26,560 nt of DNA from a virus: positions 1-26,560 of IMG/VR virus record IMGVR_UViG_3300042197_000359; one strand, written 5' to 3'. This document shows, piece by piece, positions 2,321 through 16,324 of this stretch. The position numbers and the translations under genes are program-made. A model generated the notes under the pieces. That model ran no database searches. It saw nothing but the letters and a program-made list of their open reading frames with translations, and had not been told where the DNA came from. Numbering within the stretch: the first letter of the stretch is position 1; each line of letters begins with the position of its first letter.

Positions 2321-2408
2321 TTAGTAGGGGGGCTGCGCCCTCGGGGTATATCTACACAAATTGGACATATCTCAAACCCTATATACCTTATTACGATCCT
2401 TCAAAAAT

Positions 2409-2459
2409 TTTTCCAGATTCATAGCATTACGATAGATAAAATATTTTCCAGATTCATAG
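2409..2459 (+). repeat. direct repeat TTTTCCAGATTCATAG, two copies
   Basis: Identical 16-mers at 2409-2424 and 2444-2459, each preceded by ATTACGA (2390 and 2426). A diverged copy (TTTTCCAGTTTCATGG) lies at 3061-3076 after the ATTACGA at 3042. The spacing is irregular, which fits iterons rather than a CRISPR array. Confidence 0.75.
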
Positions 2460-2582
2460 AAAAATATCAAACCTTATATCCAATATATCCTAATTTGTAA
2501 TATCATGTATGTGTTATGTATACTAGGTATATGGATATGTTTTTTTAATTCCCCCGACTTTACCGCCGCAGCGGGGCGGCGC

Positions 2583-2611
2583 ACTATACCACATTACGAT
2601 CCGCTTGTCAA
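2583..2611 (-). promoter_or_regulatory. leftward consensus promoter in the origin region
   Basis: On the minus strand: TTGACA (2611-2606), 17-base spacer, TATAGT (2588-2583). Transcription would run left into the GC-rich hairpins at 2551-2580. No ORF follows, so the product would be non-coding. Confidence 0.45.
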
Positions 2612-2836
2612 GCCCCCTAAAATTACGGGGGATAAAAAAGATCCACACTATCAAACCCTATATATAGTATTACGAAGACACCAAATTTTTTCCTGGATTT
2701 TTTAAATAAAATGAATATGTTTTATATATTTTTTATAACTTTTTGTTATATTTTCCACAGTTTTTGGGCAAAAATAATATGTTTTATATATCAAATATTG
2801 AGACAATATTGCCCATATTGTGGACATATTAGATAC

Positions 2837-2865
2837 TTGACATATGGTTTTATATGGGATATAAT
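2837..2865 (+). promoter_or_regulatory. perfect consensus promoter in the origin region
   Basis: TTGACA (2837-2842), exactly 17 bases, TATAAT (2860-2865). The predicted start is near 2872. No plausible coding sequence follows for over 200 bases. Confidence 0.6.
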
Positions 2866-2871
2866 CCAGAA

Positions 2872-2996
2872 AAAAGGTTTGATACTAGATATAGTGGTTT
2901 GGGGATTACGAACCCCCTAGTAATAGATGCTCCATTCCCCACTATCCTCCACTTCCCTCCACCAATAATATTATATTTATACACAGTAATATTTTT
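2872..2996 (+). ncRNA. candidate structured non-coding RNA with CCTCC motifs
   Basis: Downstream of the 2837-2865 promoter. An outer stem ATAGTGG (2891-2897)/CCACTAT (2939-2945) encloses a GGGG/CCCC hairpin (2901-2904/2913-2916). A pyrimidine-rich tail (2946-2963) carries two CCTCCAC motifs. An AT stem AATATTA (2967-2973)/TAATATT (2987-2993) followed by Ts could end it. The transcript and its 3' end are inferred. Confidence 0.3.
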
Positions 2997-2997
2997 C

Positions 2998-3018
2998 TGT
3001 GGATAAACCTGTGGATAA
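2998..3018 (-). promoter_or_regulatory. pair of perfect DnaA boxes
   Basis: TGTGGATAA occurs at 2998-3006 and 3010-3018, which is TTATCCACA on the minus strand, the strict bacterial DnaA box. Start-to-start spacing is 12 bp, about one helical turn. A one-mismatch box, TTTTCCACA, lies near 2752 on the plus strand. Confidence 0.6.
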
Positions 3019-3110
3019 CTGGGGGTATTTATAAAAATAACATTACGAAGGGTCTAAAAATTTTCCAGTTTCATGGACTTTTTTTATCCATGCTATAATA
3101 TTATTTGAGT

Positions 3111-3257
3111 ATGGATCAGGACCTGATAGACCGCATAGCCAAACTGATCCATCCCTATCTCAAAACCAAACATAAAGAAAAAGAATCTCACGATATTGCA
3201 ATCCGCATTGTTGAGGAGTTGGAAAAACAACCTCCAACCTGGTATACTCATGGATAA
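3111..3257 (+). CDS. 48-residue helical phage protein
   Basis: ATG GAT CAG at 3111 opens a 48-codon frame to TAA 3257: a helical, charged peptide beginning MDQDLIDRIAKLIHPYL with an IAIRIVEELEK helix. TATAAT at 3094-3099 lies 11 bases upstream. Small proteins with an N-terminal IDRIA motif are frequent in actinophages (recollection). It ends nine bases before the sulfotransferase ATG. A leftward ORF over this stretch is treated as a shadow. Confidence 0.6.
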   Translation: MDQDLIDRIAKLIHPYLKTKHKEKESHDIAIRIVEELEKQPPTWYTHG

Positions 3258-4268: not shown

Positions 4269-4453
4269 TCAGGGGCAAGAGTATAATCCCCATATGCTTC
4301 TTCGCATAATGGGCAAAATGAATTAGCAGATCTATTTTTATCCAGGCTAATAAGCAATATGCCCTTATCTTGCAAATCTAGCGTTTCAGGATCTAGCCTG
4401 TCATAGACTATAGGTATTAACTTAGTATTACATTTTATACAGGAAGTTAGCAT
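4247..4453 (-). CDS. small zinc-ribbon-like protein, leaderless
   Basis: 68 residues with two CxxC-type pairs: CIKC near the N-terminus (residues 5-8) and CPLC near residue 47, a probable zinc ribbon. Function unknown. On the minus strand TATAAT (4464-4459) lies five bases before the ATG, supporting a real leaderless gene instead of a shadow. It is one of only two clear minus-strand signals left of 10 kb, and it converges on the 4044 gene. Confidence 0.6.
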   Translation of the reverse strand: MLTSCIKCNTKLIPIVYDRLDPETLDLQDKGILLISLDKNRSANSFCPLCEEAYGDYTLAPDYSSNED

Positions 4454-4507
4454 AGTTTATTATAGCATTTTCTGTATACCCCGCTAAAATGCAATTATAA
4501 TATTCTA

Positions 4508-4603
4508 ATGCATTTACACGGATTTTACACTAGGCAAACAGATAACTCTGTTATTTATTATTGTAATAGATGCGGATGGGAAAAGGCTGTAGAAAATGAG
4601 TAG
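4508..4603 (+). CDS. 31-residue CxxC microprotein, leaderless
   Basis: ATG at 4508 follows TATAAT (4496-4501) by six bases, and the frame closes at TAG 4601-4603. The peptide MHLHGFYTRQTDNSVIYYCN continues with RCGWEKAVENE and carries a CNRCGW knuckle. Such CxxCGW peptides are common as mini zinc fingers. The promoter spacing and the CxxC motif support it; there is no homology evidence. Confidence 0.5.
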   Translation: MHLHGFYTRQTDNSVIYYCNRCGWEKAVENE

Positions 4604-4616
4604 GAATAGATACCTC

Positions 4617-4650
4617 AACCATATAGCCCTTTTAGGGCATAGGGTGGTTT
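4617..4650 (+). terminator. possible terminator hairpin
   Basis: GCCCT (4626-4630)/AGGGC (4634-4638) with a three-base loop, inside an outer AACC (4617-4620)/GGTT (4646-4649), followed by a loosely T-rich run. It would end transcription from the 4508 gene before the 4686 promoter. The U-tract is imperfect. Confidence 0.35.
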
Positions 4651-4685
4651 TGTGTTCTATTTTGCGCCGAACTTTAAATGCCCAG

Positions 4686-4714
4686 TTGACACTGTTATTA
4701 GATTAGGCTATAAT
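4686..4714 (+). promoter_or_regulatory. perfect consensus promoter for a candidate ncRNA
   Basis: TTGACA (4686-4691), 17-base spacer, TATAAT (4709-4714). The predicted start is about 4721. The next 110 bases are structured and have no ORF. Confidence 0.6.
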
Positions 4715-4720
4715 TATATC

Positions 4721-4830
4721 TAGAAGGGCTTAGAAACCCTTCTCATCGCACCCTTTCTGGCGATGAAGTCGTCCCTACCTTTCTGGGGATGCGCTCCTGG
4801 GTATGAGCACTAAACTGCCCCCTTTCTATT
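4721..4830 (+). ncRNA. candidate small RNA with CCTTTCT loops
   Basis: The predicted RNA begins with stem AGAAGGG (4722-4728)/CCCTTCT (4737-4743). Stem TCATCGC (4743-4749)/GCGATGA (4760-4766), which shares base 4743 with the first, has loop ACCCTTTCTG. Stem CGTCCC (4770-4775)/GGGATG (4786-4791, one G-U pair) has loop TACCTTTCTG. GCTC/GAGC (4793-4796/4805-4808) and an unpaired CCCCCTTTCT (4818-4827) follow. CCTTTCT is the exact complement of the AGAAAGG SDs seen at 467 and 1011. No homologue is recognised; the 3' end is unknown. Confidence 0.4.
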
Positions 4831-4831
4831 A

Positions 4832-4860
4832 TTGACAAACTTGATGCGATATGAGATACT
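4832..4860 (+). promoter_or_regulatory. promoter for the leaderless 4867 gene
   Basis: TTGACA (4832-4837), 17 bases, GATACT (4855-4860). The ATG at 4867 is six bases after the -10, at the expected transcription start. Confidence 0.6.
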
Positions 4861-4866
4861 TGCAGT

Positions 4867-5001
4867 ATGGAACTAACTAACGAATACATCAAATCAGAAC
4901 TTGTCAAAATTAACGAATTATTATTATCAGGCTCTTTTCATGATATAGATGAGGCTAGTCATATATCAGCAAGGTTAATAGGGGAATTAAGTTCTTCTTG
5001 A
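4867..5001 (+). CDS. 44-residue leaderless microprotein
   Basis: ATG 4867 to TGA 4999-5001: an acidic, helical peptide (MELTNEYIKSELVKINELL then ...SFHDIDEASHISARLIGELSSS). The well-formed promoter placed exactly for a leaderless start is the main support. Its last codons hold the -35 of the next promoter. It resembles the short LxxE-type helical proteins elsewhere in the window, but no family is recognised. Confidence 0.5.
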   Translation: MELTNEYIKSELVKINELLLSGSFHDIDEASHISARLIGELSSS

Positions 5002-5025
5002 TGTACCGCCGAAGTGTGAGATAAT
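4998..5025 (+). promoter_or_regulatory. promoter for the 5031 gene
   Basis: TTGATG (4998-5003), 16 bases including TACCGCC, GATAAT (5020-5025). The ATG at 5031 follows after five bases, so the mRNA is probably leaderless. Confidence 0.5.
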
Positions 5026-5030
5026 GTAGT

Positions 5031-5795: not shown

Positions 5796-5904
5796 TGACT
5801 GGTTTCACATGCTAATGTCTATTTGGTTTTATGGCATGGGGCTAGTGTTTACAGGAATACTTTTGATTATTTTATGGAGCACTATTAGAAATTTTAAGGA
5901 GTGA
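5785..5904 (+). CDS. 39-residue single-pass membrane protein
   Basis: ATG 5785, inside the end of the previous gene with GGAGG just upstream, to TGA 5902-5904. The peptide is mostly one hydrophobic helix (MSIWFYGMGLVFTGILLIIL, residues 10-29) followed by a basic/charged tail (WSTIRNFKE). It could be a small membrane effector or holin-type peptide. Its stop region holds the AAGGAG SD of the next gene. Confidence 0.55.
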   Translation: MVFNDWFHMLMSIWFYGMGLVFTGILLIILWSTIRNFKE

Positions 5905-5906
5905 TT

Positions 5907-6080
5907 ATGAGAGAGTCTTTTGAATTCCCCGAAACCTTAAGCGAAGTAGTCTTAGTTGTACAAACATTATCTCCGACAAAATGGTTACTTGTAGACAGAG
6001 AAACTGGACAAATATATCAGGGTAATGCTGCAGGTCATTGGGATAAACTTGAAACTAAACAAAGAATTGACAAGAAATAG
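5907..6080 (+). CDS. 57-residue conserved hypothetical
   Basis: ATG 5907 with AAGGAG (5896-5901) five bases upstream, ending at TAG 6080. The core WLLVDRETGQIYQGNAAGHW looks like a small beta-sheet unit, similar to short actinophage proteins with a VDR-TGQ-Y-GN pattern (recollection). Function unknown. Its last codons carry the -35 of the promoter at 6067. Confidence 0.6.
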   Translation: MRESFEFPETLSEVVLVVQTLSPTKWLLVDRETGQIYQGNAAGHWDKLETKQRIDKK

Positions 6081-6095
6081 TTTTTAGGATATAAT
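6067..6095 (+). promoter_or_regulatory. perfect consensus promoter
   Basis: TTGACA (6067-6072), 17 bases, TATAAT (6090-6095). The ATG at 6101 follows five bases later, so the 6101 mRNA should be leaderless. Confidence 0.65.
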
Positions 6096-6100
6096 AAATT

Positions 6101-6244
6101 ATGGCTGAAATATCTTTTGAGGTATTTAAGGGTGGGCATGATTTAATATTGTGTACTACTTGTTTTTGTGTTATACCGCCTCATAAGCAGTCAGATCATG
6201 TCAGGTGGCATGATAAGTTAATATTAGAAAGGCGAGATGGATAA
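6101..6244 (+). CDS. 47-residue zinc-finger-like protein, leaderless
   Basis: The peptide has LCTTCFCVIPPHKQSDHVRWHDKL: a CxxC pair followed by two His spaced like a small C2H2 finger. This arrangement is common in short actinophage proteins with a HxxWHD ending (recollection). A perfect promoter ends five bases before the ATG. It overlaps the next gene by eight bases. Likely a small nucleic-acid or protein-binding factor; function unproven. Confidence 0.6.
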   Translation: MAEISFEVFKGGHDLILCTTCFCVIPPHKQSDHVRWHDKLILERRDG

Positions 6245-6347
6245 AGGCAAGATTGCTATTTGTCACATCTGTTCAAAAGAAATTGAAGTAAGATGGGGCA
6301 TATTTGCACACGATACCCTAAATAGACATATGAAGGAGCATAAATGA
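6237..6347 (+). CDS. 36-residue C2H2-type zinc finger
   Basis: ATG 6237 to TGA 6345-6347. CHIC at residues 9-12 and LNRHMKEH at 28-35 form a C2H2 finger with a longer-than-usual middle. It overlaps the previous gene by eight bases; AGGCGAG before the ATG may act as SD. The stop overlaps the next ATG (AAATGA). Possibly a minimal DNA-binding regulator. Confidence 0.55.
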   Translation: MDKGKIAICHICSKEIEVRWGIFAHDTLNRHMKEHK

Positions 6348-6478
6348 GTTTAGATGAAATGATGTTAAGAGAAGAGATTGCCAAGGCTATTGAGGCTATA
6401 CCACTTGGTGAAGACAATAATCAACTAAATGCTGTTGGTATGCGTATCCTTGCTGCTGAAATAGCAAGAGGTAGGTAA
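6344..6478 (+). CDS. 44-residue conserved small phage protein
   Basis: ATG 6344 overlapping the previous stop; AAGGAG (6333-6338) is the SD; TAA 6476-6478. The pattern LREEIAKAIEAI...NQLNAVGMRILAAEIARG is similar to a family of short actinophage proteins (recollection). It is helical with no catalytic site. It couples to the next gene through TAATG. Confidence 0.6.
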   Translation: MSLDEMMLREEIAKAIEAIPLGEDNNQLNAVGMRILAAEIARGR

Positions 6479-6645
6479 TGAAAAAACAAAAATATTATAC
6501 AAAAAATAAAGATAACAAATGGGAAGAAGTTCCTGAAGATATAGTTAATGATATTATTAAACAATATGTAGAAAGAAAATACATTGGAACATTAATACTT
6601 GCTACCTTCATTATTGGGTTCTTGCTTGGAGTTATTGCTTCTTGA
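6478..6645 (+). CDS. 55-residue C-tail-anchored membrane protein
   Basis: ATG 6478 to TGA 6643-6645. The N-terminal 36 residues are polar and basic or acidic (KKQKYYTKNKDNKWEEVPED), then a single hydrophobic helix (IGTLILATFIIGFLLGVIAS, residues 36-55) ends the protein. The topology is like a small holin or tail-anchored effector. Its stop codon is embedded in the TTGACA of the ssb promoter. Confidence 0.55.
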   Translation: MKKQKYYTKNKDNKWEEVPEDIVNDIIKQYVERKYIGTLILATFIIGFLLGVIAS

Positions 6646-6671
6646 CAAGTACCGCCCGTATGTGGTAAACT
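6642..6671 (+). promoter_or_regulatory. ssb promoter
   Basis: TTGACA (6642-6647), 18 bases containing TACCGCCCG, TAAACT (6666-6671). A small hairpin GCATT/AATGC (6678-6692) sits at the start of the 40-nt leader and could protect the mRNA. Confidence 0.5.
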
Positions 6672-6719
6672 GATATTGCATTCTGGAAATGCGTAACTAA
6701 TAGAGAAAAGAGAGAGCAA

Positions 6720-7094
6720 ATGAATCCAGATATTACATTGGTAGGTCGTCTTGGCACAGAGCCAGAAAAAATTGGTGATAAGGGAGTTAGACTTCGCATT
6801 GTTACTAGTGATCGTGTAAAAAATCAAGCAGGTGAATGGGAAGACAAAGACACTTCATGGTGGACAGTAAAACTATGGAATAAGTCTGCAGAACAAGCAT
6901 TTAATACTGTTAAAAAGGGTCAAGAAGTAATGGTAAGAGGAACAATCTATCAAGAAAATTGGACTGATAAAGAAGGAACTGCAAGAACTTCATATGAAGT
7001 GCGTGGGGATTCTATTGGAGTAACATCCTATAGTTTATTAAAGAATAGCACTGCAGCAATGGCTACAGTATCCACTGACAATCCGTGGAAATAA
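6720..7094 (+). CDS. ssb: single-stranded DNA-binding protein
   Basis: 124 residues with an OB fold: ITLVGRLGTEPE at the N-terminus, then DTSWWTVKLWNKSAEQA, KKGQEVMVRGTI and SYEVRGDSIGV, which is the standard SSB order. It coats single-stranded DNA during phage replication. The C-terminus ends in TDNPWK instead of the DDDIPF-like acidic tip used to recruit host partners, so recruitment may differ. AGAGAG is a modest SD. It has its own promoter, unlike most neighbours, in keeping with a highly expressed replication protein. Confidence 0.9.
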   Translation: MNPDITLVGRLGTEPEKIGDKGVRLRIVTSDRVKNQAGEWEDKDTSWWTVKLWNKSAEQAFNTVKKGQEVMVRGTIYQENWTDKEGTARTSYEVRGDSIGVTSYSLLKNSTAAMATVSTDNPWK

Positions 7095-15810: not shown

Positions 15811-16040
15811 TATTTTAATGGCTTTCGTGTTACTAGCACGATAGCACCCTCCATTTCTAACGCCTTTTTTACAAGAGTAACGTATTTGACCGCTTCCATT
15901 TTCTCGTCATGCGTTAATGTCAAGAAAGATCTTTCATCTAATTTTATCGTAAGAAAGTGTTCGTTGTCAATAAGAGAAATAGTAAAATTTTTAGGAGCAG
16001 ATATAGAATGAAAAGCCTTACGCATGTTATCTGTATACAT
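15810..16040 (-). CDS. conserved hypothetical, 76 residues
   Basis: Start taken at ATG 16040, where it overlaps the WhiB stop (TAATG); a longer frame to 16079 would lie inside the WhiB gene. The protein is alpha/beta (FTISLIDNEHFLTIKLDERSFL, then EKMEAVKYVTLVKKALEMEGAIV). No catalytic motif or membrane segment. Co-transcribed with WhiB and the dimer glycosylase-like gene. Function unknown. Confidence 0.65.
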   Translation of the reverse strand: MYTDNMRKAFHSISAPKNFTISLIDNEHFLTIKLDERSFLTLTHDEKMEAVKYVTLVKKALEMEGAIVLVTRKPLK

Positions 16041-16324
16041 TATTTTTCCATAGTTAGTGCTTGCCAGGTGTAGGACCAATCTTTTTTGGTTTTATGATTA
16101 TTAAACTCTTTTGATACTTCCCCACCTTCTAGGTAGATACCGCCCCAGACACCCCACTCTTTTCCAGATATGCCTACTGCAAAACAAGTTTTTGCAACTG
16201 GACAAGTTCTACATAAAGAGTCTACAAACTGTCTGCTTTCTTCTTGTTCTTCGTAAGTATCAAAAAATAGATTGGTTTCAGATCCCAAACATAGGGCATT
16301 GTCTTTCCACAAATGCTGTTGCAC
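16040..16324 (-). CDS. WhiB-family Fe-S transcription regulator
   Basis: 94 residues with the four cluster-binding Cys C12, C38, C41, C47 (C-x25-C-x2-C-x5-C) and the GVWGG turn at 58-62, the hallmark of WhiB proteins found in actinobacteria and their phages. It would bind a [4Fe-4S] cluster and sigma factor region 4 to alter transcription, perhaps redirecting host promoters or blocking superinfection. The basic tail (NNHKTKKDW) is the DNA-contact region. GTG start with AAGGGA in the previous gene's last codons; coupled to neighbours. Confidence 0.92.
   Translation of the reverse strand: MQQHLWKDNALCLGSETNLFFDTYEEQEESRQFVDSLCRTCPVAKTCFAVGISGKEWGVWGGIYLEGGEVSKEFNNHKTKKDWSYTWQALTMEK

Follow-up and report, generated by a model that had tools for sequence, protein, structure and literature searches.

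Phages are known to borrow DnaA boxes or operators from their hosts, and phage origins such as lambda ori and T4 oriF are activated by transcription. MraZ ranks among the best-conserved transcription regulators of bacteria; we know of no origin that uses it. Annadreamy and Jada, Streptomyces phages of the Stanwilliamsviridae, carry the tandem DnaA-box pair TGTGGATAA-N3-TGTGGATAAC in gene-free DNA, and the gap that holds the pair spans 1.1–1.5 kb in some members of that family. DnaA boxes are also found in gene-free regions of T5-like phages. For bacterial oriC, the published search rule for the basal unwinding system (BUS) calls for at least three DnaA-trios, read as NTN-type trinucleotides on the box strand and lying no more than 16 bp from a DnaA box (PMC8287927). 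MraZ sites are described as 7-nt repeats that contain GTG and are separated by 3-nt spacers (PMC7761207, PMC8475190), and the operator of this transcription regulator overlaps or comes after promoters (PMC8475190, PMC7761207).

The window analysed here is the entire 26,560-bp virus record and a fragment of a larger phage. Its locus at 2321–3110 holds a core of about 120 bp that resembles bacterial oriC/BUS in having a TTATCCACA pair, a short spacer and an AT-rich stretch with NTN-type trinucleotides on the box strand (PMC8287927), but it is phage-borne, adjoins MraZ boxes, lacks the DnaA boxes in about a third of loci and has only three trios in the window. Like the operator that precedes mraZ in the dcw cluster, the phage array consists of three GTGGA-type boxes with a 10-bp period; unlike that operator, it occurs without mraZ, is inverted relative to the nearby promoter and adjoins DnaA boxes. 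As in lambda ori and T4 oriF, a promoter reads into an AT-rich region adjoining initiator sites, although no phage initiator was identified here and host DnaA sites are found instead. The box pair is identical to that of Annadreamy and Jada, whose gene-free stretches nevertheless showed no CCAC-N6-CCAC array, and differs from the boxes of the T5-like phage Seafire, which lie tens of bp apart. The open-access papers located did not appear to describe a phage-borne MraZ operator, and no conserved one joined to DnaA boxes in phages was found in them.

Most likely the locus serves a large group of actinophages as an autonomous DNA control element, a replication origin or takeover hub read by host DnaA and MraZ. 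The neighbouring genes change, yet the MraZ operator and the DnaA boxes beside it keep a fixed geometry; this suggests viral exploitation of actinobacterial division and replication regulators. The core also offers a short DNA element with which to test how these phages begin replication or sense the host.

Conservation of the core and its promoter

Relatives were collected by an IMG/VR search with the gene at 985–1350, which returned 80 records. Of the 75 relatives that extend to this position, 74 carry the core at the same place, once per contig, as judged by a profile made from its shared sequence (E < 1e-5); five short contigs stop before it and were excluded from the 75, and the single exception, L014, gave only a weak match. 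The elements follow one another as ATTACGA, ~33 nt, CCAC-N6-CCAC-N6-CCAC, ~22 nt, CAGTAA, 8 nt and TGTGGATAAACCTGTGGATAAC. This conserved single-copy core is the main feature of the locus; it, the MraZ operator that is its best-identified part and the promoter reading into it had all been overlooked in the initial annotation. The features of the window are as follows.

2837–2865, plus strand: perfect sigma-70 promoter TTGACA-N17-TATAAT, pointing into the core
2902–3022, plus strand: conserved single-copy core with ATTACGA, MraZ boxes, AT-rich spacer, CAGTAA and DnaA-box pair (nhmmer E 2.2e-26 for the window)
2939–2962, minus strand: predicted MraZ operator, three GTGG boxes with a 10-bp period, GTGGAGGGAAGTGGAGGATAGTGG on the minus strand
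2963–2997, no strand: spacer of 86% AT that separates the MraZ from the DnaA sites, a candidate region for unwinding
2977–2985, plus strand: third perfect DnaA box, TTATNCACA / TTATACACA, specific to the window
2984–2989, plus strand: conserved CAGTAA (TTACTG on the minus strand)
2998–3006, minus strand: DnaA box TTATCCACA
3010–3018, minus strand: DnaA box TTATCCACA
3111–3257, plus strand: 48-aa ORF downstream of the core, with its own -10 TATAAT at 3094–3099; position not conserved across relatives
6720–7094, plus strand: single-strand binding protein, SSB (PF00436, E 2.4e-19)
16040–16324, minus strand: WhiB-like gene (PF02467, E 4.8e-12), a marker of actinobacterial hosts

The WhiB-like protein indicates an actinobacterial host. 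DnaE, DnaB, DnaG and RecA are encoded by a complete relative, and the closest known relatives of the phage DnaE polymerase belong to Streptomyces phages, Stanwilliamsviridae. Between 1800 and 3600 the window showed no nucleotide similarity to known phages, and the nearest upstream flanking ORFs checked gave no match in a Pfam search. One phage of this type, L133 (contig CANGYR010000020.1), was binned in a MAG labelled Chitinophagaceae, likely a mis-binning given that the phage markers indicate an actinobacterial host.

In the 39 non-redundant loci, the first genes downstream of the core fell into dozens of unrelated clusters and were sometimes on the opposite strand, which argues that the core is kept for itself and not as the regulator or leader of any one gene. 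The core showed no RNA covariation, with 0 compensatory pairs, and thus probably acts as DNA; no Rfam family matched at the locus. In every one of the 39 loci the core is preceded, at a distance of 35–93 bp, by a promoter that scores 10–12 out of 12 against TTGACA-N17-TATAAT (mean of 8.3 after shuffling), and the window as a whole holds three perfect sigma-70 promoters where 0.05 are expected.

Conservation of this promoter raises the alternative that the locus is an early transcription control hub with no replication start, at which the promoter would yield a non-coding RNA or a leader, with operators of the MraZ, DnaA, ATTACGA and AAACC/GGTTT types tuning transcription to the state of the host. 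The promoter spacer often contains AAACC or GGTTT, some non-coding ATTACGA copies elsewhere lie ~6–7 nt upstream of a TTGACA-like -35, and MraZ is a known transcription regulator with its operator at or after promoters (PMC8475190, PMC7761207). This explanation must contend with the variable and sometimes antisense genes downstream, with the lack of conserved RNA structure and with MraZ boxes that, unlike those at mraZ promoters, are oriented away from the promoter and sit ~70–95 bp past its -10 in the window. We consider it unlikely, if of appreciable weight.

Predicted sites for host MraZ and host DnaA

The autonomous DNA element favoured above has its clearest component at 2939–2962, where three GTG-containing direct repeats recur with a 10-bp period (0 expected from shuffles). 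Among the 39 loci these boxes were perfect in 29, carried 1–2 mismatches in 9 and were lost in 1. The period agrees with the published 7-nt repeats and 3-nt spacers, a layout that the phage array shares on the minus strand. An exact scan with the family motif CCACTNTCCTCCACTTNNCTCCAC was carried out on ~85,000 bacterial and archaeal genomes, one per species (84,980 species), and returned 53 matches where we estimate ~0.1 by chance. All but two of these (51/53) precede mraZ by 10–205 bp and are on the same (GTGG) strand, the adjoining mraZ genes being recognised by an HMM made from the adjacent proteins; the remaining two are L133, described above, and L166, at a contig end. Because 51 of the 53 genome matches adjoin mraZ, we read the core as holding an operator for this host division regulator, and the CCAC array is, judged from its sequence, very probably a MraZ operator. 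None of 16 phage records encodes a MraZ gene. Of the small Actinomycetes genomes checked, which appear to be host-like, about half have related boxes upstream of mraZ.

The shared TCCAC allowed the CCAC repeats to be considered as weak DnaA boxes, a reading rejected by the genome-wide link to mraZ. A leftward, mraZ-like promoter across the MraZ boxes was also discarded, no good -35 being seen by eye. CTCCAC occurs three times in the non-coding DNA of a second phage group, mostly near a TTGACATTACG-type motif (members L181, L196, L197, L201–L205, L207, L218, L221, L235, L242, L246, L262, L264, L277 and L281). There a hairpin and then purine-rich DNA come after the three boxes; ATTACGA lies ~92 bp upstream in several members, and a few have DnaA pairs.

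The DnaA-box pair lies ~35 bp from the MraZ operator. The two perfect boxes previously reported at 2998–3006 and 3010–3018 are real, such a pair being reached in 0 of 20,000 Markov sequences, and the third box, missed at the time, brings the cluster to three consensus boxes in 42 bp of the window. Across the 39 loci a pair was present in 24 (0.000 expected from shuffling) and a single box in 1; the other 14 have no DnaA box and still have MraZ boxes and CAGTAA. As the phages do not encode DnaA, the boxes must be read by the host protein, and binding by host DnaA is predicted from the sequence with good confidence. In 20 small Actinomycetes genomes, presumed to be host-type, every tandem TTATCCACA pair found adjoins dnaA, so that in those genomes the pair is a signature of the dnaA locus.

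NTN trio-like runs on the box strand next to the pair averaged 6.7 in the family compared to 2.7 in shuffled sequence, while the window itself has three trios, the minimum under the rule (P = 0.33). Loci that lack boxes had shorter runs (Mann-Whitney P = 0.003, with lengths counted by eye and shared ancestry uncorrected). At the level of the phage family this appears to fit the published BUS rule (PMC8287927); tandem DnaA boxes of the hosts were without the adjacent trio arrangement of the phage type. In some relatives a second tandem DnaA-box pair lies ~4–5 kb from the core, outside the window. It was placed ~4.3–4.7 kb left of the core in G001 (34608), G016 (26952) and G002 (118491), where a CRP-like palindrome (TGTGA-N6-TCACA or close to it) comes after the pair, its distance to the core being roughly constant; the window has no CRP-like site.

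A possible replication origin and competing explanations

The locus had been proposed as a DnaA-dependent replication origin. The proposal gains from a conserved, single-copy and non-coding locus with a DnaA pair in 24/39 loci, and is weakened by the skew, by the 14/39 loci without boxes and by the lack of regular iterons. The GC-skew check suggested for it placed the origin at the locus neither in the window, where the minimum lies elsewhere, nor in a complete relative of 118.8 kb, in which the cumulative skew has its minimum at 92 kb and its maximum at 21 kb with the locus at ~4.4–5.1 kb. Cumulative and fourfold-site GC skew gave no coherent signal at the locus. Skew was found to follow gene strand and was rejected as a test of origin.

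An origin is nonetheless argued for by the combination of a single copy in gene-free DNA, an AT-rich spacer, boxes for the host initiator, an inward promoter and a phage-encoded replisome, and by Streptomyces phages from the family with the closest known DnaE, whose gene-free DNA has the same box pair. The skew and the loss of boxes in about a third of loci count against it, as do the minimal trio count of the window, the lack of adjacent trios at the tandem boxes of the hosts, the second DnaA-box pairs of some relatives and the want of a known origin that uses MraZ. On balance, we tentatively give slightly less than an even chance to the locus being the main replication origin of the phage group. 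In such an origin, host DnaA would bind the box pair and help to open the AT-rich spacer between the pair and the MraZ boxes, aided by transcription from the inward promoter. Phage DnaB helicase, DnaG primase and DnaE polymerase would then assemble at the opened site. Host MraZ, bound beside it, could gate initiation or promoter escape and so link both to the division state of the host. The fuller proposal, in which MraZ gates an origin that host DnaA opens and phage replication is coupled to the host division programme, is in our estimation unlikely. The docking sites for host MraZ and DnaA, which share one conserved block of 118 bases, would probably let the phage start DNA copying with the help of the host.

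The same sites could instead act as a decoy, soaking up MraZ and DnaA as the phage replicates, with the division cluster derepressed and host replication initiation blocked as a result. Both sites match host cell-cycle regulators, neither of which is phage-encoded, and in the scanned genomes of host type tandem DnaA boxes occur at dnaA alone. Titration would however be weak early in infection because there is only one core per genome, and a decoy needs neither fixed geometry nor a conserved spacer sequence; we regard it as quite improbable. A site for packaging, recombination or another structural function of the DNA, with fortuitous regulator motifs, would likewise be non-coding, conserved and single-copy. 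No terminase gene was recognised beside the locus in the window, a terminase-like ORF lies ~35 kb from it in the complete relative, and the exact MraZ and DnaA sites would be left unexplained, making this a very remote prospect.

Repeats and composition around the core

The repeats and AT-rich DNA reported earlier for 2321–3110 were located as follows.

2390–2396, plus strand: ATTACGA motif 1
2409–2424, plus strand: 16-mer TTTTCCAGATTCATAG, copy 1, ~12 nt 3' of an ATTACGA
2426–2432, plus strand: ATTACGA motif 2
2444–2459, plus strand: 16-mer TTTTCCAGATTCATAG, copy 2
2593–2599, plus strand: ATTACGA motif 3
2669–2675, plus strand: ATTACGA motif 4
2690–2800, no strand: stretch of 83% AT that includes a near-DnaA box, TTTTCCACA, at 2751–2759
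2905–2911, plus strand: ATTACGA motif 5, at the left edge of the conserved core
3042–3048, plus strand: ATTACGA motif 6

All six same-strand ATTACGA motifs are present, a number that none of 20,000 Markov sequences modelled on the 790-bp stretch reached, and the duplication of TTTTCCAGATTCATAG was confirmed. The whole window has 11 copies of ATTACGA compared to 2.2 expected (maximum 7 in 100 shuffles). Absence of the repeats from relatives had been named as grounds for abandoning the origin; same-strand clusters of at least three ATTACGA were in fact present at the matching locus in almost all of the 80 relatives. The description of the motifs as iteron-like did not hold, as their spacing is irregular (36, 167, 76, 236 and 137 bp) and lacks the regular direct repeats of an iteron-type origin; they are therefore not classical iterons. 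A role as a general promoter element was rejected given that scattered copies lie mostly within coding sequence.

AT-richness was borne out locally, at 83–86% in 2690–2800 and 2963–2997, while over the full stretch 67.5% AT is only a slight excess over the 64.4% of the window. To call the stretch the only large gene-free one was an overstatement, since 4269–5030 is largely gene-free too; 5796–6719 is dense with small ORFs.

TCAAACC motifs to the left and GGTTTG to the right of the locus were seen in the window (2651–2900) and in relatives, often within the promoter spacer, and TTGACAAACCATGGTTTTGCATGTATAAT occupies that spacer in several relatives; these motifs are possibly the operator of some regulator. 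A second perfect promoter, TTGACA-N17-TATAAT at 4686–4714, is followed by short inverted repeats with no clear gene and no Rfam match, and the segment 4686–4830 possibly encodes a small RNA.
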